Source: a virus. Taken from it: DNA of 46,316 bases. How positions within the stretch are numbered: the first letter of the stretch is position 1; each line of letters opens with the position of its first letter. Location of the stretch: IMG/VR virus record IMGVR_UViG_3300020578_000140, positions 1 through 46,316 of that record; one strand, written 5' to 3'. The notes beneath the pieces are model-generated. The model was not told where the DNA came from, did not search any database, and saw nothing but the letters and a program-made list of their open reading frames with translations. A program made the translations under genes and the position numbers. Shown one piece after another: positions 5,464-44,720 of this stretch.

Positions 5464-5479
5464 GTTATGAGGAGGAAAA

Positions 5480-9565: not shown

Positions 9566-9597
9566 ATATATAGTAAAGACTACACATTGGAGGATTC

Positions 9598-10126: not shown

Positions 10127-10127
10127 T

Positions 10128-10361: not shown

Positions 10362-10366
10362 AATAA

Positions 10367-16279: not shown

Positions 16280-16584
16280 AAGAATTTACTAGAGGTTGGA
16301 TAATTGGAGACTTTAGTCCATCCATACTAAAGACAGACAAGTTTGAGGTTGGCTTGCTTCAGCATAAGGCTGGAGAGATTTGGCCAAAACATTATCATAA
16401 AGTTGGCACAGAATATAATGTTTTGGTAAGTGGTAAGATGATAATACAGGGTAGAGAATTAAATGCTGGAGATGTATTTGTTTTTAATCCAGACGATATT
16501 GCAGATCCTGTTTTTTTGCAGGATTGTACAGTATTGGTTGTAAAAGTACCTTCTTTACCAGGGGATAAGTATGAAGTTTTATAA
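16261..16584 (+). CDS. Cupin-fold protein
   Basis: 107 aa. GEIWPKHYHKVGTEYNVLVSGKMIIQGRELNAGDVFVFNPDD gives cupin motif 1 (HYHKVGTEYNVLVSG) and motif 2 (GDVFVFNPDD). Only part of the metal ligand set is clear (H-x-H and E). Could be an epimerase, isomerase or binding protein for the sugar made by this operon. Confidence 0.75.
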   Translation: MEIRRIEEFTRGWIIGDFSPSILKTDKFEVGLLQHKAGEIWPKHYHKVGTEYNVLVSGKMIIQGRELNAGDVFVFNPDDIADPVFLQDCTVLVVKVPSLPGDKYEVL

Positions 16585-18695: not shown

Positions 18696-19053
18696 TTTAT
18701 TAATTTTTGTAATTGTGGTAACAGTTGTTGCTGGTGCAGTAATAGAAAACATAAGACTAAAAAATAAAAACGTTGAACTAATGTTTTTATTGGCACAGTC
18801 AACTTTAGATATAAATGCCGTCAAAGATAAAATAAGTAATTTAAAAGATAATCCAGAAAAAGATCATTTTATTGCATTTTTAAATGATACAAGAAACATG
18901 GCATATAAATATATCGAAGAGTTACAGGGTGAATTAATTACTTTTGCAAAAGTATTAGAAAAAGAACTTGAATCTCCAAATGATTTGTCAGTTCCGAGAA
19001 TAGCAAAAGCCTTTGAGCAAGTAGAAAAAATGAGGCCACGTGAAGGCGAATAA
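18688..19053 (+). CDS. Single-pass membrane protein with coiled coil
   Basis: 121 aa. Residues 2-20 (IDLLIFVIVVTVVAGAVI) form a membrane segment, followed by a long charged helix likely to be coiled coil. GGAGG (18675-18679) 8 bp upstream fixes the start at 18688. Possibly a Rz-like or scaffold membrane protein; not certain. Confidence 0.6.
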   Translation: MIDLLIFVIVVTVVAGAVIENIRLKNKNVELMFLLAQSTLDINAVKDKISNLKDNPEKDHFIAFLNDTRNMAYKYIEELQGELITFAKVLEKELESPNDLSVPRIAKAFEQVEKMRPREGE

Positions 19054-28724: not shown

Positions 28725-28749
28725 AGAGCAGTTTATGCACATGCTCAGG
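28725..28749 (-). terminator. CTGAGCA...AAACTGCTC stem-loop, copy 1
   Basis: Read on the - strand, CTGAGCA, a short A/T loop and AAACTGCTC, then TTTTA. It lies just 3' of the Hsp20 gene. The same element follows genes at 38.2, 40.6 and 41.2 kb. Confidence 0.6.
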
Positions 28750-28772
28750 TGCTCAGTATGACCTACTGTTAT

Positions 28773-29192
28773 TTATTTGATTTTGATTGTTTTTGGTTTC
28801 TTTTCTTCGGGAATGTTTCGTTCCACAAAGATGTCAAGAATACCATCTGCCATTTCAGCACGATCTACCTCCATATACTCTCCAAGAGCAAAGGTGCGTG
28901 TGAATTTTCTGGTTGCGATACCCTTATGTAGAACCTCATTTGAGGACTCTTCGGTTTTCTCACCCTTTACCACCAAACTTCCATTATCCACAGAAACCTC
29001 TACCTCATCCTTGCTGAATCCAGCAATTGCTAAAGATAGTTTGTAAGTATCCTCATCAAGTTTTACCAAATCATACGGTGGGTAGGATTGACGAGTTGCC
29101 TCACGATGGATATTTGAAAGACGGTCCAACTCTCTGTTGAAACCAATAAAAAAAGGATCCTTAAAAAGATCCAATGACCATGAACTTACCAT
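28773..29192 (-). CDS. Hsp20/alpha-crystallin small heat-shock protein
   Basis: 139 aa. Alpha-crystallin domain with YKLSLAIAGFSKDEVEVSVDNGSLVVKGEKTEE, FTRTFALGEYMEVDRAEMADGILDIFVERNIPEE, and the IxI-like tail IKIK. GGAGG 5 bp before the start. Small heat-shock proteins also occur in cyanophages; likely holds unfolded proteins during infection. Confidence 0.92.
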   Translation of the reverse strand: MVSSWSLDLFKDPFFIGFNRELDRLSNIHREATRQSYPPYDLVKLDEDTYKLSLAIAGFSKDEVEVSVDNGSLVVKGEKTEESSNEVLHKGIATRKFTRTFALGEYMEVDRAEMADGILDIFVERNIPEEKKPKTIKIK

Positions 29193-30847: not shown

Positions 30848-30988
30848 CTACCTTTCATAATCGTCTTCTTCTTTATCCCAAGCATCTTCCAAGTCGTCCA
30901 TTGATTGTGCTAATTTAGCAAAAGAAATTGAAATAAATGTAGCAGCAATGCCAACGGCAACAAACAATGATATAAATATTTTTTTCAT
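30848..30988 (-). CDS. Small exported or membrane protein, 46 aa
   Basis: MKKIFISLFVAVGIAATFISISFAKLAQ is one membrane or signal segment, then an acidic tail. Overlaps the AdoMet decarboxylase gene by ATGA. Coding call rests on coupling and composition. Confidence 0.6.
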   Translation of the reverse strand: MKKIFISLFVAVGIAATFISISFAKLAQSMDDLEDAWDKEEDDYER

Positions 30989-31371
30989 CTGTAATCCTTT
31001 CCTGAGACCTCTTCAACAAATCCATTTTCTCTATCAAACAAAACAAATTCTAAAGAATCAACTGTAAAAGTTTGTTTAAAAATTTGTAATACTTTTTCAA
31101 GTTCTAAACTTCCGCAGGTATAAAGATCAAACTGAACTAAAGCAGGGTCAGCCTCATCCCATATATGAAATGCTATATGGCTAGTCTCTATCATAACTAC
31201 GGCAGTTAAGCCCCTGTTACCCTTCTTGTCAACATAACTTGCAAAAGGACCTTGTACAATCTTCATATCGATTTTGTCTACAAGGTTTTTTAGAAACTCA
31301 ATACCCTGTTGTTCCGTATCAATTGGATTCTTAACTTTGGCATTAACCAATAAATGTTTGTGATATATCAT
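30985..31371 (-). CDS. speD: S-adenosylmethionine decarboxylase
   Basis: 128 aa. IETSHIAFHIWDE contains S64, which would become the pyruvoyl group after self-cleavage, with H65 and H69; FDLYTCG gives C86. These match class 1B AdoMetDC (S63, H68, C83 in Thermotoga). Makes decarboxylated AdoMet for spermidine synthesis; no SpeE partner is seen here. GAGG 7 bp upstream fixes the start at 31371. Confidence 0.85.
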   Translation of the reverse strand: MIYHKHLLVNAKVKNPIDTEQQGIEFLKNLVDKIDMKIVQGPFASYVDKKGNRGLTAVVMIETSHIAFHIWDEADPALVQFDLYTCGSLELEKVLQIFKQTFTVDSLEFVLFDRENGFVEEVSGKDYR

Positions 31372-31392
31372 TTTGTTTTCCTCATATAACAA

Positions 31393-31716: not shown

Positions 31717-32637
31717 ATGGATCATGAAAAATTGTTTGGTGATGTTATTATTCATAATAGGGACATTCTTAGTCCAAAGACCATAGTAAACGCTAGAATG
31801 CAAAATGTATTTGATAAGGATGAAGAATTAAGGCAGAAGGCCCACCCTTACGTTCCCGACAGCATTGGACGCTGGGAAGATGACTATTACTATACATATA
31901 ACGTACATACAGGGTTGTCGCAATTTAATAAAATACTGTACAAATTAAATAAACAAGGTTTTAGATCTAACAATTTTAATACTGTAAATAAAGAAAAATT
32001 TACAGTTTTGTATAGTGGATGTTCAGTAACATTTGGACAAGACTTACCAGAAGAAATGTTATGGACAAAACTAGTAACAAAAGAATTATCTAAAAATAAA
32101 GAAGTTGAAGAATACAATTTATCTATAATGGGTGGTTCTATATTTTTAACACTTAGCAATATATGTGCCTTTATTAATACTTATGGAATGCCAAATTTAA
32201 TAATTGCATTAATGCCAGACATAACAAGAACAATAACTTTTGATCCAACCACTTCAGAGTTTTTTGATTTAACTCCAAAAATGATAAATGCTAACGCTAA
32301 AGATTTTATTCATCAATTAATGCCAGAAAATTTATTATTAAATGATTTGTTAATGTTTAAATTGTTGGAGTTATTATGTAAAAATTCTGGTTCTAGATTT
32401 TTATTTTCTTCATATGAAAAATTAACTAATGATTGTTTTGTTATGTTTGCAGACGATCTAGATTGCTGGTTTGAGTCTGGATTGATTTTTCCGAGACCAC
32501 CAGTGCTAAGTGCATTTGCTGTTAAACCAGATTACGGAGATCACGAATCCCCATATTGGGAAATAGCAGGAGATAAAAAACATCCAGGCGGTGGGTGGCA
32601 CGATAAATTTGCCAAAAGAGTATTTGAGATTTTATGA
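31717..32637 (+). CDS. SGNH-hydrolase-like protein
   Basis: 306 aa. FTVLYSGCSVTFGQDLPEEMLW (block I), LSIMGGSI (block II), LMPDITRT (block III) and DKKHPGGGWH (C-terminal D..H). Adjacent paralogue overlaps by ATGA. Leaderless. Confidence 0.68.
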   Translation: MDHEKLFGDVIIHNRDILSPKTIVNARMQNVFDKDEELRQKAHPYVPDSIGRWEDDYYYTYNVHTGLSQFNKILYKLNKQGFRSNNFNTVNKEKFTVLYSGCSVTFGQDLPEEMLWTKLVTKELSKNKEVEEYNLSIMGGSIFLTLSNICAFINTYGMPNLIIALMPDITRTITFDPTTSEFFDLTPKMINANAKDFIHQLMPENLLLNDLLMFKLLELLCKNSGSRFLFSSYEKLTNDCFVMFADDLDCWFESGLIFPRPPVLSAFAVKPDYGDHESPYWEIAGDKKHPGGGWHDKFAKRVFEIL

Positions 32638-33521
32638 CTTTAGATATTACTAAAAGTATATATGATAATATAACCGCTTTTGATCATTCGCAATTTCATA
32701 TCAAAAGTGTCGGTGGCTCCATGCTCACAAGAGAGGGTTATTGGGAAAATGATTATTTTTATACTAAAAGTACTAATGCTGAAGATGTAATATATAAGAT
32801 AAATAAAGATGGATTTAGAACAGATAATTTTGAGCCTTTAGATAAGAATAACTTTAACATATTGTACAGCGGATGCTCTTTTAGTTTTGGACAGGATATC
32901 CCACAAGAATTTAGATGGTCTGATTTTACAACAGAGTACTTTCAAAACACAACAAATGCTAAAGGCTATAACCTTTCTATTATGGGGGCTTCAATTCATT
33001 TAATAATAAAAAATATATGTGCCTTTATCAATAGATATGGAATACCAGATGTGTTAGTAATGATGTTGCCAGACATTCACCGAAAGATGATTTACAGTAC
33101 ATATAAAGATCAGTTTATACCAGCCCAACTAAACGTTGATAAAAACAGTACGATTGACTGGATGTATGAAGAGTTATTAAAATATAAAGAAAATTATATA
33201 CCGCAAGAAAATGCAATAGTTTATCTAACAATGATAGATTTATTAGAAAATATGTTTAAAGCAAATGGTTCTATATTTTTGTGGAGCACGTGGCACATTG
33301 ATTCTGAATCAGTATTTCGTAATTTTGCTGACAAGTACAGTTCTTATTTTAAAATACCCACACTTTATCCAGACTATACTAAAAAGGATTACGGCAACAA
33401 AGAATTAAAATATTGGTTTCTCGCTGGGGACGGTCAGCATCCTGGCGGTGGTTGGAATAAAGAAGTTTCTGAAACAGTTATAGAACTAATAAACAAACGC
33501 TTAAAGTTCGGCGGAAAATAG
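32634..33521 (+). CDS. SGNH-hydrolase-like protein, tandem copy
   Basis: 295 aa. FNILYSGCSFSFGQDIPQEFRW, LSIMGASI, MLPDIHRK and DGQHPGGGWN align with the upstream copy throughout, so this is a local duplication. Confidence 0.68.
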   Translation: MTLDITKSIYDNITAFDHSQFHIKSVGGSMLTREGYWENDYFYTKSTNAEDVIYKINKDGFRTDNFEPLDKNNFNILYSGCSFSFGQDIPQEFRWSDFTTEYFQNTTNAKGYNLSIMGASIHLIIKNICAFINRYGIPDVLVMMLPDIHRKMIYSTYKDQFIPAQLNVDKNSTIDWMYEELLKYKENYIPQENAIVYLTMIDLLENMFKANGSIFLWSTWHIDSESVFRNFADKYSSYFKIPTLYPDYTKKDYGNKELKYWFLAGDGQHPGGGWNKEVSETVIELINKRLKFGGK

Positions 33522-33563: not shown

Positions 33564-34091
33564 AATAGTTCTACTATCCACCTTATTATAATATTCTGAT
33601 AACCTCTTATCCATAATACTCTTCAATACTATTTCTGGATACATCGATTCTTTAAATGCATCTTGATAAGGTTCTGACCACACCTCAAAAGAGATCTCTC
33701 TGCCCATAATTTCATTAAATAAAGAATCTTTGCCTGTCTTGGTTTTCCAATTTGTATCTTCAAGGGCAAAATGATCAAACAAGGCCTTGGTCAAAATATC
33801 TAAATGTTTGAAGGATTCATAGTTAATAATGGTTTTAGCATTTTCATATATGTAATCTGAATATATCCTATATTTTTCTATAGCAGCAGAAGTTTCACAT
33901 CCTAAGTAAATTAGATCAGCAACTGCCTCATGTGGTTTTCTACATATTCCAATGACGTGATCTACACTGTCTTCTGGCATATCTGGTCCAAAGGTATATT
34001 TAAACGATACGTGAGGTATCTCAAATTTAATCTGTATATATTCCCCAACAGTGGATTTTGTTCCAGGTAGGGTAAGAAGATGTACTCTCAT
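33555..34091 (-). CDS. Hypothetical protein, 178 aa, possibly sulfotransferase-like
   Basis: LLTLPGTKSTVGEYIQI near the N-terminus and HVIGICRKPHEAVADLIYLG later loosely recall the PAPS loop and RxP motif of sulfotransferases, but the key residues are weak. Overlaps the upstream gene by ATGA. No firm assignment. Confidence 0.5.
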   Translation of the reverse strand: MRVHLLTLPGTKSTVGEYIQIKFEIPHVSFKYTFGPDMPEDSVDHVIGICRKPHEAVADLIYLGCETSAAIEKYRIYSDYIYENAKTIINYESFKHLDILTKALFDHFALEDTNWKTKTGKDSLFNEIMGREISFEVWSEPYQDAFKESMYPEIVLKSIMDKRLSEYYNKVDSRTIKP

Positions 34092-35482: not shown

Positions 35483-35772
35483 TTATTCCTTATTAGGGGG
35501 ATTATGGGAATGATCGTAATCTTTTTTATACCCGCCATTTTCGGCCCCAAAATCGCCCCCGTTAAAATCGAGCGGGGTAAATGAAAAGAACTTACTAAGA
35601 CCTATCATATGAGTAAAGGCTACAAAAGAGTTATGTAAATTATCACTAAAGGTTTTATATCCTTTTGGATCTCTTTTGCTATAAGTATAAAAATGTCTTG
35701 GCATAATATAGATAATCATAACACGAATTTATTATGGTTTGGGGAAAAAATGGTTTGTATCGTAATGGTTTG
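35275..35772. repeat. AAACCAT/ATGGTTTG repeat cluster
   Basis: Heptamer AAACCAT or its complement occurs at least eight times, including 35275, 35282, about 35316, the palindrome near 35352, about 35474, and three times between 35733 and 35772. The cluster surrounds the 35483-35704 gene. Confidence 0.55.
35483..35704 (-). CDS. Hypothetical protein, 73 aa
   Basis: MPRHFYTYSKRDPKGYKTF...NGGDFGAENGGYKKDYDHSHNPPNKE. His/Asp-rich tail. Lies inside the repeat cluster. Start at 35704 preferred over upstream codons. No family. Confidence 0.55.
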   Translation of the reverse strand: MPRHFYTYSKRDPKGYKTFSDNLHNSFVAFTHMIGLSKFFSFTPLDFNGGDFGAENGGYKKDYDHSHNPPNKE

Positions 35773-35803
35773 TATGCCTTGAAAAATACACCGACCACTT
35801 TTG
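35758..35803 (-). repeat. Bipartite element CGTAA/GTCGGGC, copy 1
   Basis: TATCGTAA and CCGACCACTTTTG, whose starts are 32 bp apart. Sits just 3' of the 35807 gene. Confidence 0.6.
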
Positions 35804-35806
35804 TGG

Positions 35807-36076
35807 CTAATTGTCAAATCGTTTTAACAATTCATCAAGTGTAGAAAATCCAGTATCTTCTGTTTTCAATGATTCTAAAAATAAATCCCAAGTTTCGTTA
35901 ATATATTTTGTTACTAAGTCATTGGTTGGAATTATCTCTTGACTAATAAAAAATGCTAGAGGCAAACCCAAGTCATTGTATTCTACAAAATCAGCAAACT
36001 CACCATCATGTTTATAATTCATCCACAGGTCAGCAAGTATATTACAACGACTAGAAAAGTCTGTATTGGTGCTCAT
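35807..36076 (-). CDS. Hypothetical actinophage protein, 89 aa
   Basis: RCNILADLWMNYKHDGEFADFVEYNDLGLPLAFFI and ETWDLFLESL are typical of a widespread small actinophage family. Function unknown. Confidence 0.65.
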   Translation of the reverse strand: MSTNTDFSSRCNILADLWMNYKHDGEFADFVEYNDLGLPLAFFISQEIIPTNDLVTKYINETWDLFLESLKTEDTGFSTLDELLKRFDN

Positions 36077-36266
36077 GTGTATAGTTCTCCTCTTTGTGAT
36101 ACTGTGCGCTCTCTGCGATAGTAATAAGCCTATTATACGATACTGTTGGTGCTATTTTTGCTAAATACTCGCCTATCTGCTCAATGTCAAGGCGAAGGTC
36201 AGACACAATGGCAACAAGGCGCATGGCTACCCTCTCCTCCTCAGTAAGTCGTCTGCGTATGGACAT
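36051..36266 (-). CDS. Hypothetical protein, 71 aa
   Basis: MSIRRRLTEEERVAMRLVAIVSDLRLDIEQIGEYLAKIAP: helical, basic N-terminus. GAGGAG 5 bp before ATG 36266 and TATAAT (36282-36277) just upstream fix the start. Confidence 0.6.
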   Translation of the reverse strand: MSIRRRLTEEERVAMRLVAIVSDLRLDIEQIGEYLAKIAPTVSYNRLITIAESAQYHKEENYTHEHQYRLF

Positions 36267-36350
36267 AGTTCTCCTCATTATAGCAAAAAAGTGAGAGGAG
36301 CGCAAGGCCAACAAAGAAAGGTGGAATCTTTACCTCACGCTCCAATATTA

Positions 36351-36710
36351 TTATCCTTTAACTAACTGAGAACTATGATAGTTAATATAGTCCTCTATTG
36401 AATGCCATTGGTTTCCAGTGCCCACAGTCATATTTGTGAAATCAATAGTGATTGGATGGTCTAAGTAACCAGGGTCCGACGGATTCATGGCTGTAATGCC
36501 ATAGCCAGTCTCTTCTAAGATACTATCCTGCATGATATAACTAATAGCCATTCGAGTTGCATACGGGATGTCATTCATCTGTATACGTGGCGTTGCATGC
36601 TGCAGGGCTGCTGCCAGGAGTGTATCCATATGGTCTTCATCCCAATGACTATACAAGGCCACGGCGTGGTCCTCTGATTGTTTAAAGATAAAATTACAAC
36701 GTGCTCCCAT
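36351..36710 (-). CDS. 'MGARCNF' phage protein, 119 aa
   Basis: MGARCNFIFKQSEDHAVALYSHWDEDHMDTLLAAALQHATPR matches a family common in actinophages. Promoter with both boxes directly upstream. Function unknown. Confidence 0.7.
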   Translation of the reverse strand: MGARCNFIFKQSEDHAVALYSHWDEDHMDTLLAAALQHATPRIQMNDIPYATRMAISYIMQDSILEETGYGITAMNPSDPGYLDHPITIDFTNMTVGTGNQWHSIEDYINYHSSQLVKG

Positions 36711-36742
36711 TGCTAGGCCTTTCTGTAGTAGGGTTTATTCCA

Positions 36743-36771
36743 ATGATATCAAGTTCTAGGTCCAATGTCAA
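36743..36771 (-). promoter_or_regulatory. SigA-type promoter
   Basis: On the - strand TTGACA (36771-36766), 17-bp spacer, TATCAT (36748-36743). Drives the 36351-36710 gene, which has AAAGG before its ATG. Confidence 0.75.
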
Positions 36772-36781
36772 CTGGATCCAT

Positions 36782-37060
36782 TCATTCATTCGCTGCCTCC
36801 TTTGCAGCAATGGCAAATGATAGGTCATATGTCAAACCATATAAATTTCCTAGAGCGTCAAGTTGACCTTCCCAATACCTACGCTCCATAGAATCTAAGG
36901 CCTCTTCAGTGTGGTCCTCTTCTTCCTGTGCTGCCTCTAGTTCCTTCTCAGCCTCTAGCATTAGGAACTTAAGGTGCCCATGCATGATATCAATTCCGCT
37001 AATACCATTGCTTACCTGTCTCTGCAGGTATGGGTCTAGAGTTGTTGGCGTTACTTCCAT
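36782..37060 (-). CDS. Hypothetical coiled-coil protein, 92 aa
   Basis: LEAEKELEAAQEEEDHTEEALDSMERRYWEGQL is a strongly charged helix. Overlaps the Api92-like stop by one base. Function unknown. Confidence 0.6.
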   Translation of the reverse strand: MEVTPTTLDPYLQRQVSNGISGIDIMHGHLKFLMLEAEKELEAAQEEEDHTEEALDSMERRYWEGQLDALGNLYGLTYDLSFAIAAKEAANE

Positions 37061-37797
37061 TATGTGGTTGGCTCCATTCTATAACTAGGCACGTGCTCGT
37101 CGTCTAAGTATATCTTGTGGTGTTCGCATTCCGCAACTGCTTCTAAGTCTGCCTCACCCATGTAGTGGCAGTCACTGCAGATTTCTCCACAGTCATTGTC
37201 ACAATACTCCATTGTGTTTATACTGTCACAATCTCTGCATTTGTTGTCATAAGATTCTATTTCACTACCCTGACCATTTATGAATAGGTGCTCTCCACCC
37301 CAACCAGTCTCTTCTTCATAAGATAAAGACATCTCAAGGTCAGGATACTGTTCTGATAGTTTTGTTATAGCCTCAATAGGTGGAGACCATGCGGTATTGA
37401 AGCGGTATGCAAGAGTATCAGGAGTATCAATCGTTATCTCAGTATCAGAATACTCTTCTCCGTCATGAACTGCAACATCCCATTTAGTTCCCCAGTTACG
37501 CACATTCCAGTCATACCAATTATTACCCTTAAACATAATAGCCTCTGATATAGGTTGCGTATGGTCTGATTGTTTGTTGTATTCCTCGTCTGATACGCCT
37601 GCTTGTTTATGGTTATAAATGTTGTGGAATGCAAATACAGGATTTGAATATGTAGTATCTGATAACTCCATTTTACCTGTTGTTTGATTCCATGAGTCGT
37701 GTGTTTGTGTGAATGGCCTATTGAGCATGCGCTTTACATCTGCAATAAGTTCTTCGCTACCCTCCATAGTTAGAGAGTTGTAGCACCAATTTGGCAT
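37060..37797 (-). CDS. Api92-like/YubB ferredoxin-fold protein with zinc ribbon
   Basis: 245 aa. MPNWCYNSLTMEG, the WNVRNWGTKWD block and FNTAWSPPIEAI mark the Api92-like ferredoxin fold. The C-terminal 60 residues carry CRDC, CDNDC and CSDC, an added zinc ribbon. Leader contains the CAACAACAAAGAAAGG cassette. Function unknown. Confidence 0.78.
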   Translation of the reverse strand: MPNWCYNSLTMEGSEELIADVKRMLNRPFTQTHDSWNQTTGKMELSDTTYSNPVFAFHNIYNHKQAGVSDEEYNKQSDHTQPISEAIMFKGNNWYDWNVRNWGTKWDVAVHDGEEYSDTEITIDTPDTLAYRFNTAWSPPIEAITKLSEQYPDLEMSLSYEEETGWGGEHLFINGQGSEIESYDNKCRDCDSINTMEYCDNDCGEICSDCHYMGEADLEAVAECEHHKIYLDDEHVPSYRMEPTT

Positions 37798-37804
37798 TGG
37801 GGGC

Positions 37805-37820
37805 CCTTTCTTTGTTGTTG
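37805..37820 (-). promoter_or_regulatory. Shared leader cassette CAACAACAAAGAAAGG, copy 1
   Basis: Identical 16 bp occur at 41109-41124 and 41670-41685, always just before a start codon and containing the AAAGG ribosome site. A TAGAAT -10 box lies upstream. Confidence 0.6.
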
Positions 37821-37850
37821 GTATTATTCTAGCAAAATATCAGGGTGTTG

Positions 37851-38015
37851 TCAAATACGTCCTTCAGCAATTAAGCCATTCAGGAAATCCTCTAGTTCTC
37901 TCAATGTTTCCCTATCCTCATCTGCAAACCTTCCAGTCATGTGATGATGAATAGTATAGTTTAAAGTCATCATCATTTTATCTATCTGTTCTTCTGTATA
38001 TCCCATTAATCCCAT
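37851..38015 (-). CDS. Hypothetical protein, 54 aa
   Basis: MGLMGYTEEQIDKMMMTLNYTIHHHM...ETLRELEDFLNGLIAEGRI. Helical. TATGAT box (38027-38022) 6 bp before the ATG indicates a leaderless mRNA. Confidence 0.55.
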   Translation of the reverse strand: MGLMGYTEEQIDKMMMTLNYTIHHHMTGRFADEDRETLRELEDFLNGLIAEGRI

Positions 38016-38053
38016 AGATAAATCATAGCAAAAATTATGGGAAAAAGCAAGTT

Positions 38054-38090
38054 CTACGTAATAAAAAAATTTTGTGAGATTTTTAATCGG
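38054..38090 (-). repeat. Bipartite element, partial tandem copy
   Basis: CTACGTAATAAAA...TTTTTAATCGG repeats the first two thirds of the next copy in direct tandem (about 37-bp unit). Confidence 0.55.
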
Positions 38091-38136
38091 CTACGTAATA
38101 AAATAAAATTATGATATTTTTAGTCGGGCACTTGCG
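38091..38136 (-). repeat. Bipartite element CGTAA/GTCGGGC, copy 2
   Basis: CTACGTAA at 38091 and GTCGGGCACTTG at 38123, 32 bp apart. Its end abuts the 3' end of tRNA-Asp. Confidence 0.6.
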
Positions 38137-38210
38137 ATGCGTATGGGATTTGAACCCATGATCTCTACCGTGACAGGGTAGCGATTTAAACCAAACTAAT
38201 CTAACGCACC
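38135..38210 (-). tRNA. tRNA-Asp (GTC)
   Basis: 76 nt. Acceptor stem GGTGCGT pairs with ACGCATC (one G-T). D arm GATT/AATC, anticodon stem CTACC/GGTAG with loop CTGTCAC (anticodon GTC), T arm ATGGG-TTCAAAT-CCCAT. CCA is not encoded. It lies downstream of the DUF932 gene and its stem-loop, so it may be processed from that transcript. Confidence 0.93.
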
Positions 38211-38220
38211 AAATAAATTG

Positions 38221-38243
38221 TGAGCAGTTTATACTCTTGCTCA
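38221..38243 (-). terminator. CTGAGCA...AAACTGCTC stem-loop, copy 2
   Basis: TGAGCA/TGCTCA 6-bp stem just 3' of the DUF932 gene. There is no T run, and the tRNA follows, so it may be a processing or stability hairpin rather than a strong terminator. Confidence 0.55.
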
Positions 38244-38257
38244 GGAGTTGCAATTAC

Positions 38258-39274
38258 TTACGCAACTGCTAGAACATCTTTCACTACTTTGAGCAGACGA
38301 TTTTTTTCTGCTGTGATAGCAGGGTCAAAACCACTTGAACCCATTAGTATTGATTCAGTAAGACCACGCTTACCTCCACGATACCAATCAATTCTTTCTG
38401 TGAGTGCGTTCCAAGCACCCCAAGCAGTTCCAGAAATCATGCCGTTAAACTCACCAGTATAGATGTCATTGATTGTGTCAACTTTTTTAGTCCATTTAGT
38501 GAGAGCCTGTTTAGCATTTTTATCAGGCTTTGGATAAGCAGCGAGAACAATATCATTGAATTGTTGCGCTGTGATTTCTTTCTCAATCATAGCCTTAGCC
38601 ATTATTGAAAACTCATCCATGTAAGCATTAGCAACAGCAAGAGCCTCACGAGCCTGTTGCACTTTACCATTGGCAGATTGCGTATGACGAATCTTGAAAG
38701 ATTGCTTAACGCCATCCTTCTTTTTCTTGCCACCTAGAGCAACAGCAAGAGTGTTAGCGCATACAACACGAACAGGGGTGACAGACGCTTGAATTGCAAT
38801 AGAGCCATCGTGTGATGTATTAACAAGAAGATAAGTCTTGATAACATCAGCAACACCACTAGGGTCTAATACAGTTTCACGCTGTAAGGCAAGAGAGCCA
38901 AATACAACACGACCACCACGCAACGAGCCAGCAGTTTCCCAACGACCTCCGCCATCAAGAATTGCATCACCAAATGAGAATAGGTCTTCGTTTTGTAGTG
39001 GAACATAGCGCTCACCTACAACACCAAGAACATCTGTCTGAGTGTTATCTGTGGGGTTAGTTCTCACAACATACTGATAAGATTTATCTGAGGTGAGATA
39101 ATTTGGAATATCTAATTCCTCTAATCTAACATTCCAATTATTTAGATTAGCAGCAACTAACATTTCGTTAGTATTTTTTTCTTCTGTGAAAACTGTGCCT
39201 AAGCCATGCCAAGCAGGTTCTCTGAAAGAAGCAAATGAAGCAACGCCATTTTGCGTTTCTAATTCATGAGCCAT
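38258..39274 (-). CDS. DUF932 phage/plasmid-like protein
   Basis: 338 aa. AWHGLGTVFTEEKNTNEMLVAANLNNWNV, VGERYVPLQNEDLFSFGDAIL and VRVVCANTLAVAL are the DUF932 (TIGR03299) landmarks. Full family length. Promoter TTGCAT-17-TAAGAT upstream. Role unknown; the family is often found on mobile DNA. Confidence 0.88.
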   Translation of the reverse strand: MAHELETQNGVASFASFREPAWHGLGTVFTEEKNTNEMLVAANLNNWNVRLEELDIPNYLTSDKSYQYVVRTNPTDNTQTDVLGVVGERYVPLQNEDLFSFGDAILDGGGRWETAGSLRGGRVVFGSLALQRETVLDPSGVADVIKTYLLVNTSHDGSIAIQASVTPVRVVCANTLAVALGGKKKKDGVKQSFKIRHTQSANGKVQQAREALAVANAYMDEFSIMAKAMIEKEITAQQFNDIVLAAYPKPDKNAKQALTKWTKKVDTINDIYTGEFNGMISGTAWGAWNALTERIDWYRGGKRGLTESILMGSSGFDPAITAEKNRLLKVVKDVLAVA

Positions 39275-39303
39275 TTTTTTCCTTCCTATTTGTAGTTATT
39301 CTA

Positions 39304-39332
39304 ATCTTAGCATAATGTATAGGAAAATGCAA
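39304..39332 (-). promoter_or_regulatory. SigA-type promoter for the DUF932 gene
   Basis: TTGCAT (39332-39327), 17-bp spacer ending TGC, TAAGAT (39309-39304). Confidence 0.65.
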
Positions 39333-39357
39333 ATCTTAAATGAGGAAAACATATAAT

Positions 39358-39404
39358 CTACGTAAAACGGACATTTAGGTATAAAACGGGCCGACCACTT
39401 TTTG
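39358..39404 (-). repeat. Bipartite element CGTAA/GTCGGGC, copy 3
   Basis: CTACGTAA at 39358 and GCCGACCACTTTTTG from 39390, 32 bp apart. The inner ACGTAAAACGGACATTTAG (19 bp) is identical in the 42.8-kb copy. Confidence 0.65.
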
Positions 39405-39415
39405 AAGAAAAACTT

Positions 39416-39440
39416 TAAGCAGTTTCACTGGACGTGCTTA
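39416..39440 (-). terminator. TAAGCA...TGCTTA stem-loop with T run
   Basis: TAAGCA-N13-TGCTTA followed by AAGTTTTTC on the - strand. It keeps the AAACTGCTT loop side of the CTGAGCA family but with a compensatory G-C to A-T change. Ends the putative structured RNA. Confidence 0.7.
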
Positions 39441-39640
39441 GGTCCCATGCTGCTACAGCCAGAAAGGATCAATCAACTGCAGCACCGATTCTCTACGAAA
39501 TCACGCACCGCCAAGGTCATAGGCCGACGGTTATGACGCCCGTCGGGTTGGTGCGCTAAAAATAGAGCCTCTAGGCTTGCATATCCAGACATCCCAAGGT
39601 CAACGGATAGCGACATTGACCTTAGCATTGTCAGGAATTC
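39416..39640 (-). ncRNA. Candidate structured non-coding RNA with pseudoknot
   Basis: No open frame, and visibly more GC-rich than its surroundings. It contains AAGGTCAA-N12-TTGACCTT (39596-39623) and a TGCTGC/GCAGCA stem (39448-39484). A CGCACC/GGTGCG stem (39504-39555) encloses GTCATA, CCGACGG, TATGAC and CCGTCGG in interleaved order, which is an H-type pseudoknot if both helices form. It ends at a terminator hairpin. Strand is inferred from the terminator and from neighbouring genes. Family not recognised; not tRNA or tmRNA. Confidence 0.55.
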
Positions 39641-39645
39641 TTATT

Positions 39646-40113
39646 TCAGTATTCTGCAGTAGAAATATTATCTACTTCTACTTCTACATCAACATCATGA
39701 GACGAAGAATCAGCCCAAACATTTAAATCAATATCCTCGACATCAAATGTTGAAAGTTCATTAAATGGCACCCTTACAACTCCTGTGATTGTTGCAGTTG
39801 CTTCAAAGTGAATTTCCTTTTCAGGGGCAAATCCAAATATTTGACAAATCTCAGATACAATATCTTCTGCAGATGTGTCGTTTTCTAACCATCCGTGAAG
39901 TTCGCCTTCTAACTGGCGATGAAGTTTGTTGTGATTGTCAACCACTCGTTGGTAATAACGAGCATTTTCTAATTGATATTCAATATCAGTTACTTTTACT
40001 GTGGGGTAGTGGTTTGTTACCCCTCTTCCTTCATCATTATCAATAACTTTATAAGTTACTAATTGATTTGGGTTGTAGTGGTCAGGCACTACGATTTCAT
40101 TAGTCGTTTCCAT
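39646..40113 (-). CDS. Hypothetical actinophage protein, 155 aa
   Basis: Charged N-terminal half with LENARYYQRVVDNHNKLHRQLEGELHGWL and a C-terminal beta half ending in repeated VDVEVEVD. Overlaps the upstream gene by 14 bp. Function unknown. Confidence 0.65.
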   Translation of the reverse strand: METTNEIVVPDHYNPNQLVTYKVIDNDEGRGVTNHYPTVKVTDIEYQLENARYYQRVVDNHNKLHRQLEGELHGWLENDTSAEDIVSEICQIFGFAPEKEIHFEATATITGVVRVPFNELSTFDVEDIDLNVWADSSSHDVDVEVEVDNISTAEY

Positions 40114-40372
40114 TTACTATATCCTCCATAGATTCTATTTCATTTATAGTAGATAGCATATCATTTAATTCTGATTCTGTCAATAATGCGCTAGTTACTA
40201 AACTTGTTGTTAAAGAAGCAAGCAGAGCAGAATACTGATACAGTTCTTTAATAAACTCCTCGTCATTAACTTCATTTCTAATGTCTAGAATGTGCTTAAC
40301 ACACACCAACATCATTTCGTCATGAACGGCGTCTCTTGACGCTTCTTGTAATTTGATAGCGGTTGCTAACAT
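40100..40372 (-). CDS. Hypothetical protein, 90 aa
   Basis: MLATAIKLQEASRDAVHDEMMLVCVKHIL...helical throughout. AAAGGA 8 bp before ATG 40372; upstream in-frame codons rejected. Confidence 0.6.
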   Translation of the reverse strand: MLATAIKLQEASRDAVHDEMMLVCVKHILDIRNEVNDEEFIKELYQYSALLASLTTSLVTSALLTESELNDMLSTINEIESMEDIVNGND

Positions 40373-40478
40373 TTGTTTATCCTTTCTTATATAATCTAAT
40401 AATATCACTTATGACTGACAAATACAAACTGGAGTCGTAAATAATCTCACATAATGGACTGTGTTTTACATCACATGT

Positions 40479-40493
40479 GGTCGGGCACTTTTG
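40479..40493 (-). repeat. GTCGGGCACTTTT element, copy 4 (half)
   Basis: GGTCGGGCACTTTTG. The CGTAA partner (40436) lies about 46 bp away, longer than in other copies. Confidence 0.5.
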
Positions 40494-40640
40494 AGGTGGA
40501 GCAGTTTAGACACTAAAGGATTTCCTCCATACTCAGGTGTTTGGGAGTGTCAAGGGACATTGATAACAAGATCAACATAGTTGCAACTACATCGCAGGTT
40601 ATCGTGAACGCAGACTGGCACCCAATTCTATTTAGTTTTA
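40494..40640 (-). other. Non-coding region with inverted repeats
   Basis: No gene seen. GATAAC (about 40564) and GTTATC (about 40599) enclose the palindrome TAGTTGCAACTA; a degenerate CTGAGTA...AAACTGCTC stem-loop (40499-40547) follows on the - strand. May be a second small structured RNA. Confidence 0.4.
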
Positions 40641-40645
40641 TTTGG

Positions 40646-40668
40646 TGAGCAGTTTTATTTCATGCTCA
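40646..40668 (-). terminator. CTGAGCA...AAACTGCTC stem-loop, copy 3
   Basis: TGAGCA/TGCTCA stem 12 bp after the 40680 gene stop. No T run. Confidence 0.55.
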
Positions 40669-40679
40669 GGAAAGTAATT

Positions 40680-41102
40680 TTACAAGTATCTTGCGATAGA
40701 ATTGTAAGTAGAAGTAGAAACTACTTCCTCATCAGTCATTTTGAGAATACGAATTGCGTTCTCAATTTCCTCTACGATTTCTTTATACTGCCAATCGTTG
40801 AGAGTATCAAAGTCCTTTTCAGGCATTTCAGGAACTACAATACAACCTTTAGGTAAATTGAAATCTACATTGACCTCGCCATTGTAGCGAACATTAGCCG
40901 TTAGGTCTGTTGCCTTAGAGAGTTTAGCAAGTGCTAATTCGCCTACCTCTTTACGCCAAGCCAATAAAGCCTTTTCGTGTTTGTCCTCGTTTGCTTTTTG
41001 GTTGTCCTTATCTTTCTTGATTTGGACTAACTTACTTTCAAGTGCCTTGATTACTTTGGAGGTAGCAATCTTGACATTTATACTTTTGCCATTTCTAGCC
41101 AT
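40680..41102 (-). CDS. Hypothetical actinophage protein, 140 aa
   Basis: MARNGKSINVKIATSKVIKALESKLVQIKKDKDNQ, a lysine-rich coiled coil, then a small beta part and an acidic helical tail. Leader cassette CAACAACAAAGAAAGG; promoter TTGATT-17-TAAGAT (41158-41130). Common actinophage protein of unknown role. Confidence 0.68.
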   Translation of the reverse strand: MARNGKSINVKIATSKVIKALESKLVQIKKDKDNQKANEDKHEKALLAWRKEVGELALAKLSKATDLTANVRYNGEVNVDFNLPKGCIVVPEMPEKDFDTLNDWQYKEIVEEIENAIRILKMTDEEVVSTSTYNSIARYL

Positions 41103-41129
41103 TTATTTCCTTTCTTTGTTGTTGTATCT

Positions 41130-41158
41130 ATCTTAGCATTTCTACGATAGAAAATCAA
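41130..41158 (-). promoter_or_regulatory. SigA-type promoter
   Basis: TTGATT (41158-41153), 17-bp spacer ending TGC, TAAGAT (41135-41130). Confidence 0.6.
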
Positions 41159-41159
41159 G

Positions 41160-41184
41160 TGAGCAGTTTTGGTTGTCATGCTCA
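41160..41184 (-). terminator. CTGAGCA...AAACTGCTC stem-loop, copy 4
   Basis: TGAGCA/TGCTCA stem about 33 bp after the 41217 gene stop, just before the next promoter. Confidence 0.55.
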
Positions 41185-41216
41185 GGACAATTAGCCCAAC
41201 TTCGGATAGTGGCGGG

Positions 41217-41390
41217 CTAAGACTGTTTTGCTGTCCAAGTAGTCCAGCGTGGTGAGCCATTGACATCAAGTTTTACACGAACGCTTGTTCCGTCTGTGTT
41301 TGGCTTGATTTCAGTAATGACTCCAGTTATCTTAGACTTCTGTGAAGTATAAGTATCGCCCACTTTGTATAGTGCGTTTTTTACTGACAT
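41217..41390 (-). CDS. Small beta protein, 57 aa
   Basis: Starts MSVKNALYKVGDTYTSQKSK and ends GSPRWTTWTAKQS. Similar in layout to the 41493 gene (YxxGDxxTSxxxxITGxI), so the two are probably paralogues with a KOW/SH3-like barrel. Uses promoter 41433-41461. Confidence 0.6.
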   Translation of the reverse strand: MSVKNALYKVGDTYTSQKSKITGVITEIKPNTDGTSVRVKLDVNGSPRWTTWTAKQS

Positions 41391-41432
41391 GTGTTCCTTT
41401 CAGAGCATAGTGTTTTTGGTATTACATGTATT

Positions 41433-41461
41433 ATTATGACATTTATGGGATTATTTGTCAA
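41433..41461 (-). promoter_or_regulatory. SigA-type promoter
   Basis: TTGACA (41461-41456), 17-bp spacer, CATAAT (41438-41433). Confidence 0.7.
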
Positions 41462-41492
41462 ATCCCACAAATACCATAAAATGTGATTTACC

Positions 41493-41663
41493 TCACTTAG
41501 AGGTTTTGACCATAGCAAAACGGCGAGAACCATTTGCTAGGATAAGATTTACACGAGTGACCTTATTACTAAGAGGTGAGAACGAGGCAATTCTGCCTGT
41601 AATTCCTGTCCTAGAAGTAGTGAACAGGTCGCCTAGTTGATAAGTGTATCCGCCTAGAGTCAT
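41493..41663 (-). CDS. Small beta protein, 56 aa
   Basis: Starts MTLGGYTYQLGDLFTTSRTG and ends GSRRFAMVKTSK. Leader cassette precedes ATG 41663. Paralogue-like to the 41217 gene. Possible nucleic-acid-binding barrel; inference only. Confidence 0.6.
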   Translation of the reverse strand: MTLGGYTYQLGDLFTTSRTGITGRIASFSPLSNKVTRVNLILANGSRRFAMVKTSK

Positions 41664-41770
41664 GTCCGTCCTTTCTTTGTTGTTGTTGTATAAGTTTATC
41701 AAAAAAATACAAGAAATACAAATCAATCAGGGGATTTAGGGTGTATTTTTAATGTGTCCTTAATCACAGA

Positions 41771-41815
41771 GTCGTAACTTGACAAATAAGATTTTGTGGG
41801 GCCGACCACTTTTGC
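41771..41815 (-). repeat. Bipartite element CGTAA/GTCGGGC, copy 5
   Basis: GTCGTAA at 41771 and GCCGACCACTTTTGC from 41801, 30 bp apart. Confidence 0.6.
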
Positions 41816-41888
41816 GGGGGATCTATTGATAAACGAAAAAGTAAAATATTAACCAGAGAAGAAACCAATATTCTATTTTCACAAAATT

Positions 41889-42608
41889 TTATTTTTTCTT
41901 AGCAGAAAAAACTATATCTGCTTTGTTGTAAACACATAGACTACATTTTACACATGCAGACCCCTCTTTGTCAATTAAGGGAATTGCTTTTTTATTCTCA
42001 GGACACTTAGCGCCTACTTTGCCAATCATGGCTTTGAGGTCTGCCTGCCCAATTGCAAAAGTGTCTGCAAGATATGCTAGTCTTATTCCTTTATCTTTGT
42101 TTAGACCAATAGCAATATCTTTGTTATCTTTATCTGTTGAGAAATAAAGAGATAGGTTTTCAATATTCTTGAGCATGTCTGCAGCGGTAGCCACACGAGT
42201 ATAAACCCAAAATTGTATATCAGGATTATTAAGGATTACATATTGCCATGCTCTTGTGTAGGTATCACTAAAGAAATCTCCGTCCCAGTGAATACGGAAT
42301 AACTTCTCAGCATTGCGCTTATCGCAATCAGACTTAAAATCTGTAATCATATCCTCTAATAAATCTACCATAGTGGGCTCATCCGCATTGCGTAGTAATT
42401 CCCAATTATGGAGCAGGTTATCTCTTACTCCCTTGTATATCTTTTCAAGTTTTCCTGCGTAGCATACACTCTCGCAAGTATTAGTGGCACCAGGACACGA
42501 GAAAGCCTTTCCAGCAGGCAATCCAAAAGTGTTGGCAATTGTTGGGGTCTTTCCGTTTTTAGATACGGCATTAGCAACCTTCCTATCCATAGAGCGTTTT
42601 AATTTCAT
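41889..42608 (-). CDS. Gp88-like phage protein
   Basis: 239 aa. TFGLPAGKAFSCPGATNTCESVCYAGKLEKIYKGV is the Gp88 signature; RIHWDGDFFSDTYTRAW, FWVYTRV and CPENKKAIPL with CVKCSLC complete it. The Cys-rich ends suggest metal binding. ATG overlaps the previous gene (ATGA). Function unknown. Confidence 0.85.
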   Translation of the reverse strand: MKLKRSMDRKVANAVSKNGKTPTIANTFGLPAGKAFSCPGATNTCESVCYAGKLEKIYKGVRDNLLHNWELLRNADEPTMVDLLEDMITDFKSDCDKRNAEKLFRIHWDGDFFSDTYTRAWQYVILNNPDIQFWVYTRVATAADMLKNIENLSLYFSTDKDNKDIAIGLNKDKGIRLAYLADTFAIGQADLKAMIGKVGAKCPENKKAIPLIDKEGSACVKCSLCVYNKADIVFSAKKK

Positions 42609-42751
42609 TTAGGCCTTTCTTTCTTTTCCAATTCTAACATTTCTTTATTGCTTTGTCTAGTGTATCTTTTTTTATTTGGCAAGGCGGAGGCAGCATTAGA
42701 TCGACGTAATTCTTGAATACGCTTTAATTCCTCTTTACTTTTTCTAAACAT
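42605..42751 (-). CDS. Small basic protein, 48 aa
   Basis: MFRKSKEELKRIQELRRSN...KEMLELEKKERPK, strongly basic helix. ATGA overlap with the Gp88-like gene. TATTAT box 5 bp before the ATG. Confidence 0.55.
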   Translation of the reverse strand: MFRKSKEELKRIQELRRSNAASALPNKKRYTRQSNKEMLELEKKERPK

Positions 42752-42807
42752 AACAAATAATAATATCATAAAAACATTACAAAATCAAACTGGGAGGTTC
42801 TTAACAA

Positions 42808-42857
42808 TTAACGTAAAACGGACATTTAGTACAAATTGGTCGGGCGGTTTTTGCGGG
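42808..42857 (-). repeat. Bipartite element CGTAA/GTCGGGC, copy 6
   Basis: TTAACGTAA from 42808 and GGTCGGGCGGTTTTTGCGGG to 42857, spacing about 30 bp. Just 3' of the 42861 gene. Confidence 0.6.
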
Positions 42858-42860
42858 ATT

Positions 42861-43088
42861 TTATTCTACAAAAACATACCATTCAATTTTGACATCATCT
42901 AAAACAAAGTGTTCAACTTCATCATCAAAGTCATCAACCAAAATTAATTTAAATCCATCACGAGTTTCAGTTATAGTTTTAACTGTTAAATATTCCTCAT
43001 TTATTTTGATTAAGTCACCTTCTGCTAATTGATTGGGCAGAAGGTAGTCAGCGAATACTAGATCCATATTCATCATTGTATCAGACAT
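42861..43088 (-). CDS. Hypothetical small beta protein, 75 aa
   Basis: LAEGDLIKINEEYLTVKTITETRDGFKLILVDDFDDEVEHFVLDD: beta-barrel-like, a frequent actinophage small protein. Last gene of a four-gene run. Confidence 0.6.
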   Translation of the reverse strand: MSDTMMNMDLVFADYLLPNQLAEGDLIKINEEYLTVKTITETRDGFKLILVDDFDDEVEHFVLDDVKIEWYVFVE

Positions 43089-43298
43089 TTATTTCACCAA
43101 TACATTTCCATTAGCATAGAAGGTTTTGGTATACATTTTACCCATTGGGTCAGATAGATTATAGGTTGCGTATTCTTTAGCGTTTCCGTGGTCTACGCAT
43201 TTATCCCACGCTTTCACCGCTTCAAGCAAATCTGATACTCGCAGGGTATTTACCAATTCTCCGTCATACGAAGTGGTAAGCGCATAAGTGTATTCCAT
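43089..43298 (-). CDS. Hypothetical protein, 69 aa
   Basis: MEYTYALTTSYDGELVNTLRVSDLLEAVKAWDKCVDHGNA...Adjacent to both neighbours without a gap. Confidence 0.6.
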   Translation of the reverse strand: MEYTYALTTSYDGELVNTLRVSDLLEAVKAWDKCVDHGNAKEYATYNLSDPMGKMYTKTFYANGNVLVK

Positions 43299-43580
43299 TT
43301 AGTAGTCCTCTCTTTCAATTAGCCACTCGTTTAAGTGGTGTTGTTCAATAATAGCCCAAGCAGGGGCAGTAGTCAAACCCTTATAGGTTATGCCTTCGGG
43401 CATTGGTATTTCCAAATCCCATAAGCCTAAGTCATTTACGGCATCTATGGCTTCAACACAAGGCTGAATCATAGACTTAGGAACGGGAGGGAAGTGATTA
43501 GCAGTTAAGTGAATTGCTAACTGCCTTTCAATAGTCATGTCATCAAGGTTGGCTAAGTCGTGAGCGAAGTTGCTTCCCAT
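43299..43580 (-). CDS. Hypothetical protein, 93 aa
   Basis: LAIHLTANHFPPVPKSMIQPCVEAIDAVN is a recognisable block of an actinophage small-protein family. Function unknown. Confidence 0.62.
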   Translation of the reverse strand: MGSNFAHDLANLDDMTIERQLAIHLTANHFPPVPKSMIQPCVEAIDAVNDLGLWDLEIPMPEGITYKGLTTAPAWAIIEQHHLNEWLIEREDY

Positions 43581-43582
43581 TA

Positions 43583-43792
43583 TTAGTTAGCCTCCGCAGT
43601 TTCCCAAATAGTTTTCTCAAGGCTTTTATCTGCCCAAATAACTTCTCCGTCATAGTCAAAGATTATTTCGTGTGGATTACACTCGCAATTCTCAAAGTCA
43701 TAGTCCTCGCCATTTCCCCAATAGTGAGTGCCTCTGCCATCACAATAAGAGCAGTTTCTAATTCTTTCTACTGCTAGTTCTAAAGTATTCAT
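43583..43792 (-). CDS. Zinc-knuckle protein, 69 aa
   Basis: CSYCDGRGTHYWGNGEDYDFENCECNP has a CxxC...CxC pattern like a DnaJ-type zinc repeat (CxxCxGxG). ATG 43792 has AAAGGA upstream. Confidence 0.65.
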   Translation of the reverse strand: MNTLELAVERIRNCSYCDGRGTHYWGNGEDYDFENCECNPHEIIFDYDGEVIWADKSLEKTIWETAEAN

Positions 43793-43802
43793 GTATTCTT
43801 TT

Positions 43803-43850
43803 TCCTTTCTTTCATACTGAAATCTTATCATAGGGGGCTGACATTATCAA
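43803..43850 (-). promoter_or_regulatory. TGTCAG-N10-TAAGAT promoter
   Basis: TGTCAG (43843-43838), exactly 10 bp, TAAGAT (43827-43822), preceded by TGA. Its leader shares 20 identical bp with 44537-44556. Confidence 0.6.
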
Positions 43851-43864
43851 ACCCCCACGCCCCT

Positions 43865-44362
43865 TTACCAAGAAGAAGTGTAGTAAAAGGACAATTTGGA
43901 CTTTTCGGACAATTCAAGGACATGCTTTAATTGCTTGATAGTGTCTTTTATATCCTCCCAATACCATTGGTCGATATCTGTTCCGCCAAAGAAAAAGCCT
44001 TCTCTTGGTGGCAATAGGCTAGGGTCTTTCTTGGATAGAGCCTGTTGGCAGGTAGTAAGTAATTCTCTAAGTTTCTCCTTAGATACATAGTATTCACCGC
44101 AGTCATCTTTACCGCCTTGAACATTCTCAACAAACCATGCGTGTATCTGATTAGACTTGCGCCAATAAGCGCAGGTGACTGAAACCTCTACACCATAGAT
44201 ACCATGGGCAACATCTTCCATTCCAGAAGTCTTTACAATATCATTAAATAAATCTGTCACTACTTCGGGACTGTCAAAGCCAATATCATTATCTCTATCT
44301 AACTTTTTCCAGTCAATTTTTTCTACATGCTTTTTAGCAGCAAGATACATATCTAATCCCAT
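43865..44362 (-). CDS. 'MGLDMYL' phage protein, 165 aa
   Basis: MGLDMYLAAKKHV and YWRKSNQIHAWFVENVQGGKDDCGEYYVSKEKLREL are landmarks of a phage family of unknown role. Start at 44362 fits; the longer frame is rejected. Confidence 0.75.
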   Translation of the reverse strand: MGLDMYLAAKKHVEKIDWKKLDRDNDIGFDSPEVVTDLFNDIVKTSGMEDVAHGIYGVEVSVTCAYWRKSNQIHAWFVENVQGGKDDCGEYYVSKEKLRELLTTCQQALSKKDPSLLPPREGFFFGGTDIDQWYWEDIKDTIKQLKHVLELSEKSKLSFYYTSSW

Positions 44363-44363
44363 T

Positions 44364-44531
44364 TTAGTTATTTTCCTTTCCAAAAACTTTTTCCATTATA
44401 TTTAAGTTTTCCTCTGTTAGAAAACTCTGGGCACTTCCCCAAAGACCATAAATATAATTATCTCCGTATTTATCTTTCGCTAATTTTTCAATATTAGCAA
44501 TTCTATCCATTTTTTCTTTAACTGTCAACAT
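44364..44531 (-). CDS. Hypothetical protein, 55 aa
   Basis: MLTVKEKMDRIANIEKLAKDKYGDNYIYGLWGSAQSFL. AAAGGA before ATG 44531. One base from the next gene. Confidence 0.58.
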   Translation of the reverse strand: MLTVKEKMDRIANIEKLAKDKYGDNYIYGLWGSAQSFLTEENLNIMEKVFGKENN

Positions 44532-44536
44532 GACTG

Positions 44537-44580
44537 TCCTTTCTTTCATACTGAAAGCCTATCATTTTCTACTGACATTT
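44537..44580 (-). promoter_or_regulatory. TGTCAG-N10-TAGGCT promoter
   Basis: TGTCAG (44577-44572), 10 bp ending TGA, TAGGCT (44561-44556). Confidence 0.6.
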
Positions 44581-44581
44581 T

Positions 44582-44677
44582 CAATTTAGACACGCCTAAT
44601 TTTTGTGAGAAAAATCACAGGCCCCTTAAAGTGTAACGTAATTCACATTGTGGATAAGTCTGTGGAAAACCCCCCGA
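44582..44677. other. Non-coding region with DnaA boxes
   Basis: TTATCCACA (44657-44649, - strand) is a perfect DnaA box and TTTTCCACA (44669-44661) a near match, 3 bp apart. No gene in this part. May be a replication start or a DnaA-responsive site. Confidence 0.45.
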
Positions 44678-44720
44678 CTACGTAAACCAAACAAAACAAA
44701 AATTTAGTCGGGCACTTTTA
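44678..44720 (-). repeat. Bipartite element CGTAA/GTCGGGC, copy 7
   Basis: CTACGTAA at 44678 and AGTCGGGCACTTTTA from 44706, about 29 bp apart. Confidence 0.65.

Follow-up and report, generated by a model that had tools for sequence, protein, structure and literature searches.

A two-part intergenic phage element whose variable half appears to change in step with a small phage protein

Introduction

What reads a two-part DNA element that recurs, always in one orientation, between the genes of a phage, and what would its binding do there? The question arises from a 46,316-bp IMG/VR virus contig with a GC content of 33%, referred to here in its entirety as the window, in which an initial annotation had noticed such an element. 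Genes for WhiB, DUF932, and GP88 proteins are present in the window, and its relatives are other IMG/VR phage contigs of up to 123 kb. Judged by DUF932/GP88/WhiB-type proteins, the nearest isolates are Streptomyces cluster BE phages and cluster A mycobacteriophages; therefore, the host is likely an actinobacterium, and we read the contig family as one of large actinophages from freshwater. No match to the tyrosine integrase (PF00589) or large serine recombinase (PF07508) models was obtained in 17 related records, some of which are perhaps incomplete, and by this measure the family appears to show no sign of lysogeny. The window also carries auxiliary metabolic genes for a RuBisCO-large-like protein (16571-17776, plus strand), tryptophan halogenase (19040-20575, plus), S-adenosylmethionine decarboxylase (30985-31392, minus), and Hsp20 (28773-29192, minus).

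Sites of the bipartite element

The element in the window is real and far above chance. Its gene-strand consensus consists of box 1, AAAA(G/C)NG-SYCGRC, a spacer of 22-24 bp (~23), and box 2, TTACG(T/A). A position matrix trained on four relatives alone (G001, G002, G004, and G005), with the window sequence excluded from training, placed seven window sites at the top of its ranking (scores of 39.8, 38.0, 32.6, 28.3, 27.2, 26.5, and 19.3), the next independent match scoring 9.1. Block-wise dinucleotide shuffles had a mean maximum of 10.3 and yielded 0.04 matches per window above 18. The six principal copies of the initial annotation were all recovered, with plus-strand box starts at 35758/35790, 38091/38123, 39358/39390, 41771/41801, 42808/42839, and 44678/44707 (distances of 32, 32, 32, 30, 31, and 29 bp, respectively), as was the partial tandem copy at 38054. 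Box 1 is also present in the copy described as looser, at 40480, where the distance to TTACG is 40 bp instead of ~25.

The orientation and spacing claimed for the element hold in the window and beyond it. All seven window sites are on the minus strand, which is gene-sense, and the same is true of 37 of 37 pattern matches in relatives, where spacers of 22, 23, and 24 bp occur in 2, 16, and 19 cases. Sites are confined to 35.8-44.7 kb of the window, the first 35.7 kb having none; the long relatives G001, G002, and G004 have 3-6 good sites each, clustered within ~12 kb. As expected of an operator, multiple copies stand beside the promoters of one gene module.

Site 1 (44678-44719; score 32.6) lies immediately after a stop codon, with box 1 AAAAGTGCCCGAC at 44707-44719 and box 2 TTACGTAG at 44678-44685. 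Site 2 (42808-42851; score 28.3), with box 1 AAAACCGCCCGAC at 42839-42851 and box 2 TTACGTTA, precedes the gene for a 45-aa basic protein and the GP88 gene. In site 3 (41770-41813), box 1 AAAAGTGGTCGGC (41801-41813) and box 2 TTACGA are accompanied by a CRP-like palindrome at 41753 and a promoter, TTGTAT (41721) - TAAACT (41698). The loose site 4 (40435-40492) combines box 1 AAAAGTGCCCGAC (40480-40492) with TTACGA at 40440-40435, ahead of TTGTAT (40427) - TATTAT (40404). Site 5 (39358-39402), conserved in relatives, is upstream of the DUF932 gene and has box 1 AAAAGTGGTCGGC (39390-39402), box 2 TTACGTAG, and the promoter TTGCAT (39332) - TAAGAT (39309). Site 6 with its partial tandem copy (38054-38135) begins with box 1 AAGTGCCCGAC (38123-38135) adjoining the 3' end of tRNA-Asp, contains TTACGTAG at 38098 and 38061, and is followed by TTGCTT (38050) - TATGAT (38027). 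The lowest-scoring one, site 7 (35758-35802; 19.3), has box 1 AAAAGTGGTCGGT (35790-35802) and box 2 TTACGATA and is located upstream of the gene at 35483-35719.

The strict element does not occur in actinobacterial genomes: a scan of 84,980 species genomes gave only 17 matches, which were taxonomically scattered and chance-like; an origin of the element in host genomes was rejected on this basis.

Position of the sites relative to promoters

The intergenic placement given in the initial annotation was borne out, and sites are often <20 bp from a stop codon, but the description "just 3' of a gene" is incomplete: every site is followed by a sigma70-like promoter that belongs to the next gene and usually has a TGn extended -10, so that the element stands between this promoter and the end of the gene or tRNA upstream. 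Across 51 typed genomes, the core is found at -140 to -50 from the start and never at -40 to +120, promoters and starts being predictions and orthologous promoters not being independent. A TTGACA -35 is present in 7 of 124 promoters with an operator and in 75 of 299 without one (Fisher 8e-7; orthologs not independent). The lack of sites over the promoter and the rarity of TTGACA argue against simple promoter occlusion and fit an upstream-acting factor; such a factor at box 1 is more likely to be activating than occluding. Neither box is helically phased to the promoter (for box 1, R 0.09, p 0.67), and box 1 therefore lacks the phasing that marks class I activator sites. This counts against an activator, since one acting by contact would usually show such phasing.

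Other motifs in the same promoter regions

Several other signals share these regions. CRP/GlxR-like palindromes (TGTGA-N6-TCACA, at most one mismatch) occur in the window at 40460, 41482, 41753, 44604, 44632, 45857, 46052, 46143, and 46268. In 1190 upstream regions of relatives there are 174 such palindromes vs 9.7 in shuffles, and they are phased to predicted starts, with peaks near -63, -75, and -85 (R 0.32, p 0.013); this suggests that the early promoters use a host activator of the cAMP-receptor type. DnaA-box-like TTATCCACA words are found on the minus strand of the window at 44657 and 44669 and upstream of DUF932 in L050 and L052 (14 sense and 7 antisense vs 1.7 in shuffles). The word TGTCCG is enriched ~tenfold in upstream regions of relatives, mostly in sense orientation (153 sense, 71 antisense, 16 in shuffles), and the window has it on the minus strand at 46133, 46092, 46034, 45898, 43911, 42824, and 39373; in BE phages, CGGACA follows the operator described below.

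There are also signs of structured RNA. A compact pseudoknot motif (a stem, a CTGAGCA loop, and AAAACTGCTC) recurs at 3' ends, immediately ahead of the element or of a promoter, on the minus strand at 41161-41185, 40647-40669, 39417-39441, 38222-38244, and 28726-28756. Its stem 1 pairs in 80.5% of cases vs 54% with shuffled partners, with four kinds of pair, and co-variation is seen in stem 2. Two long non-coding stretches on the minus strand, 39420-39640 upstream of site 5 and 40500-40640 upstream of site 4, look structured and have no Rfam match. The sole Rfam match was tRNA-Asp; there was none in 38200-41220 even at an E value of 5, and the pseudoknot motif was unmatched.

One half of the element switches between phages

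In ~80 related phages, the place of the element and box 2 persist, and the core of box 1 differs: GYCGRC, CYCGRG, CCTAGG, CACGT, GACGTC, GGCGCC, CCCGGG, TTCGAA, and others. The core is common to the sites of one genome and different between genomes. Upstream of the DUF932 gene, relatives retain the promoter and the layout with box 1 changed, and the replaced core recurs at other promoters of the same genome (CCTAGG in L035 and L067, CACGT in L045, and CCCGAGG in G003). Other cores recur within genomes as well, mostly between genes: GGGCCC (7 of 7 occurrences intergenic), GGCGCC (7 of 7), GCCGGC (6 of 6), CCCGGG (7 of 8), TTCGAA (7 of 8), and GACGTC. Among 167 sites of ten other core types, TTACG follows downstream in sense orientation at 112 and as antisense CGTAA at 5, with distance peaks at +25 to +30 and at +40 to +45, the latter forming a second class near 44. 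The bipartite layout is therefore family-wide, with one variable and one constant half. Exceptions are G003 and L006, which differ in both halves and have TTAAG in place of TTACG. Comparison of G003 with G004 shows the promoter flank kept and the DUF932 proteins 88% identical, with CCCGAGG..TTAAGA in the one vs GTGGTCGGC..TTACGT in the other.

A variable box 1, a mostly constant box 2, and a second spacing class fit two different readers or two domains. For the same reasons, a single dimer that contacts both boxes from one face of the DNA, as the initial annotation had it, is not favored. The cores are also more diverse than simple palindromes: L010 and L131 use the non-palindromic TTGCCGCC, and a purely palindromic model was dropped on that account. 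Calling cores from counts of every palindrome behind an A-tract proved too noisy where cores are degenerate, and repeated-word core calling and the label-free test described below were used instead.

A candidate regulator

Two overlapping genes of the window track the type of box 1. The first, which we call reg (36054-36266, minus strand), encodes a 71-aa three-helix protein and is the best candidate for the reader of box 1; it has its own predicted promoter, TTGCGC-N17-TATAAT (36305-36277), with no element. The second, g35807 (35807-36076, minus strand), overlaps reg and encodes an acidic 89-aa helical protein, whose tree tracks box 1 type equally well. Homologs of reg were found in 145 of the 169 sequences searched, with a family length of 55-80 aa. 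On the reg gene tree, core type changes 14 times (minimum 10; mean of 36.8 with shuffled labels), and on the g35807 tree 13 times (minimum 9), whereas 13 other genes of the region require 7-23 changes above their minimum. The core labels for the trees were assigned by hand with the reg sequences already seen; therefore, a label-free k-mer test on non-orthologous upstream slots was also run, and this Mantel test alone is blind. In it, reg led the 17 genes (partial rho 0.176, the next gene 0.093; Mantel p 0.001), and g35807 did not match it there. The CACGT and TTCCGG types correspond to two reg clades each, and the reg protein of G003 is ~51% identical to that of the GYCGRC type. The site sequence and a phage gene thus vary together (with labels that were partly hand-assigned), as would be expected of an operator for a phage-encoded regulator, and the association of core type with reg/g35807 is supported statistically by these sequence comparisons; linkage could carry either gene.

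The AlphaFold2 model of reg has three helices (pLDDT 86). Several of its most type-informative residues (38, 39, 41, and 43) are grouped around P40, an invariant residue where helix 3 begins. No convincing match to reg was found in Pfam, PHROGs, or PDB, and structure searches gave weak viral matches at most, so its description as a DNA-binding protein draws on the three-helix model and the co-variation. From these, we infer that reg may bind box 1. Structure searches with g35807 gave weak matches only (E values of 0.9 and above), and both genes are absent from the isolated phages in INPHARED.

Two other genes were considered and rejected. A Cas4-like nuclease gene (32006-32869 in G004, 60076-60924 in G003) is an outlier in G003 and does not follow core type elsewhere; its G003 allele stands at 54% vs 82-85% among GYCGRC genomes, which suggests a swap. 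A 53-aa helix-turn-helix (HTH) protein (33711-33872 in G004) is too conserved across core types to be the reader.

Proposed mechanism and alternatives

We propose that the element is an upstream site of early promoters, where a type-specific DNA-binding regulator encoded by the phage (the best candidate being reg, possibly with its overlapping acidic partner g35807) would read box 1, together with a constant factor or a second domain at box 2; in our judgment, this proposal has about an even chance of being correct. With the site standing clear of the promoter core, 50-140 bp ahead of the start, its occupation would most likely stimulate or license initiation at promoters with a weak -35, the main alternative being an upstream-acting repressor. 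Box 1 specificity would have been replaced repeatedly between phages, the regulator gene changing along with it.

As a repressor operator of the stoperator kind, box 1 would bind a phage protein that stops early transcription or blocks read-through from upstream, and switching might then reflect exclusion between related phages. The single orientation, the proximity to stop codons, the predicted strong and operator-free promoter of reg, and the resemblance of type switching to cluster A immunity systems (PMC6550527) all agree with this. On the other hand, no site overlaps a promoter core, the analogous operator of Streptomyces BE phages follows an intrinsic terminator and would have little read-through left to block, and neither an L5-type repressor nor an integrase was found in the relatives searched; we consider repression unlikely, but a serious contender. 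It is more doubtful still that reg and g35807 are mere fellow travelers, carried along with intergenic regions by mosaic exchange, with another protein reading box 1. The region is indeed mosaic, and the gene for the 45-aa basic protein and g42861 partly track the core (excess of 7 and 9 changes); however, simple linkage explains poorly how sites keep in step over ~9 kb when the genes lying among them show no such tracking.

The directionality, the location upstream of genes, and the narrow spacing of the two boxes would also suit recognition by an alternative sigma factor, or by one that the phage encodes, with box 1 as the -35 and box 2 as the -10 of a promoter. However, a spacer of 22-24 bp with a second class near 44 bp compares poorly with the normal 16-19 bp, most sites have a good sigma70-type promoter downstream, and the supposed -35 varies between genomes, so we regard this as very improbable. 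We give hardly any credence to box 1 being the site of a host regulator captured by the phage: promoter-phased CRP/GlxR-like palindromes do abound in these regions, but the strict element is chance-like in species genomes, and a core recognized by a host factor would not vary between phages in parallel with one of their own genes.

A two-part signal with one half rewritten in step with a small phage protein points to a regulator-target pair that is changing its code. Extending the preferred reading of an upstream site with a type-specific regulator, we tentatively suggest, as a possibility that may well prove wrong, that virulent phages use a code in which a constant half, TTACG, is joined to an exchangeable core of 4-6 bp (at least 11 kinds), read by undescribed helical regulators of 55-80 aa in which the core would be specified by a few residues near an invariant proline. 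Lytic phages that co-infect a cell, and their satellites, might then fall by type into groups of compatibility or exclusion. Temperate phages are already known to switch repressor and site specificity, for which prophage immunity accounts; the present family shows this pattern without sign of lysogeny, at early promoters of what appear to be large freshwater actinophages. Along with a candidate regulator that has no annotation, the family supplies dozens of naturally occurring protein-core pairs. Should the pairing be right, these are a ready-made data set for the DNA-recognition code of a very small protein, and the reason why lytic phages diversify their early control becomes testable.

Comparison with known systems

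Cluster A mycobacteriophages such as L5 and TipsytheTRex have many short, asymmetric operator or stoperator sites in one orientation (PMC9283540, PMC6550527), and the initial annotation had been reminded of them. As an analogy this stands: the element of the window also occurs in many copies, in one orientation, and often near stop codons, and its motif differs between phages together with a candidate phage regulator. Membership does not: the element has another sequence and a second, constant box, is always upstream of a promoter, and has sites in the early cluster only, unlike the genome-wide stoperators. The 13-bp GGTGGMTGTCAAG-type stoperator has no exact site and 13 matches at up to three mismatches vs 10.8 expected, and searches of relatives with the two-domain repressor of the L5/TipsytheTRex type (183 aa) by phmmer and tblastn gave a best E value of 3.6. 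The element thus resembles cluster A stoperators to some extent in its working, but sequence, repressor, genome-wide spread, and integrase all place it outside that system.

Two other kinds of site invite comparison. The start-associated sequences of cluster K mycobacteriophages are a short, repeated, asymmetric motif before many genes; they are directly at start codons and tied to translation starts, whereas the element is upstream of promoters. The CRP/GlxR sites of actinobacterial promoters are comparable as palindromic activator sites with an upstream position, and genuine CRP-like palindromes are found next to the element, but box 1 is not TGTGA-N6-TCACA and varies between phages.

A further parallel comes from Streptomyces cluster BE phages, which are presumed virulent (PMC10690885) and have syntenic genes in terminal repeats of ~11 kb (PMC5764925). 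In L236 and L275-L279 (positions 1-11000), we found ~12-18 copies of an operator, GTCSGGNCCSGAC, in the terminal repeats, located after hairpin terminators and before TTG..TAGACT promoters, with a different form in phage Bmoc; no description of it was found in the open papers searched. This operator differs from the element in having another core and no A-tract, and no homolog of reg or g35807 was detected in BE phages. Shared with the window are the syntenic DUF932 and GP88 genes, the high copy number (>10 in BE phages), the placement between terminator and promoter, and the variation between phages seen in Bmoc. Because the BE phages are in culture, their analogous operator permits direct experiments.
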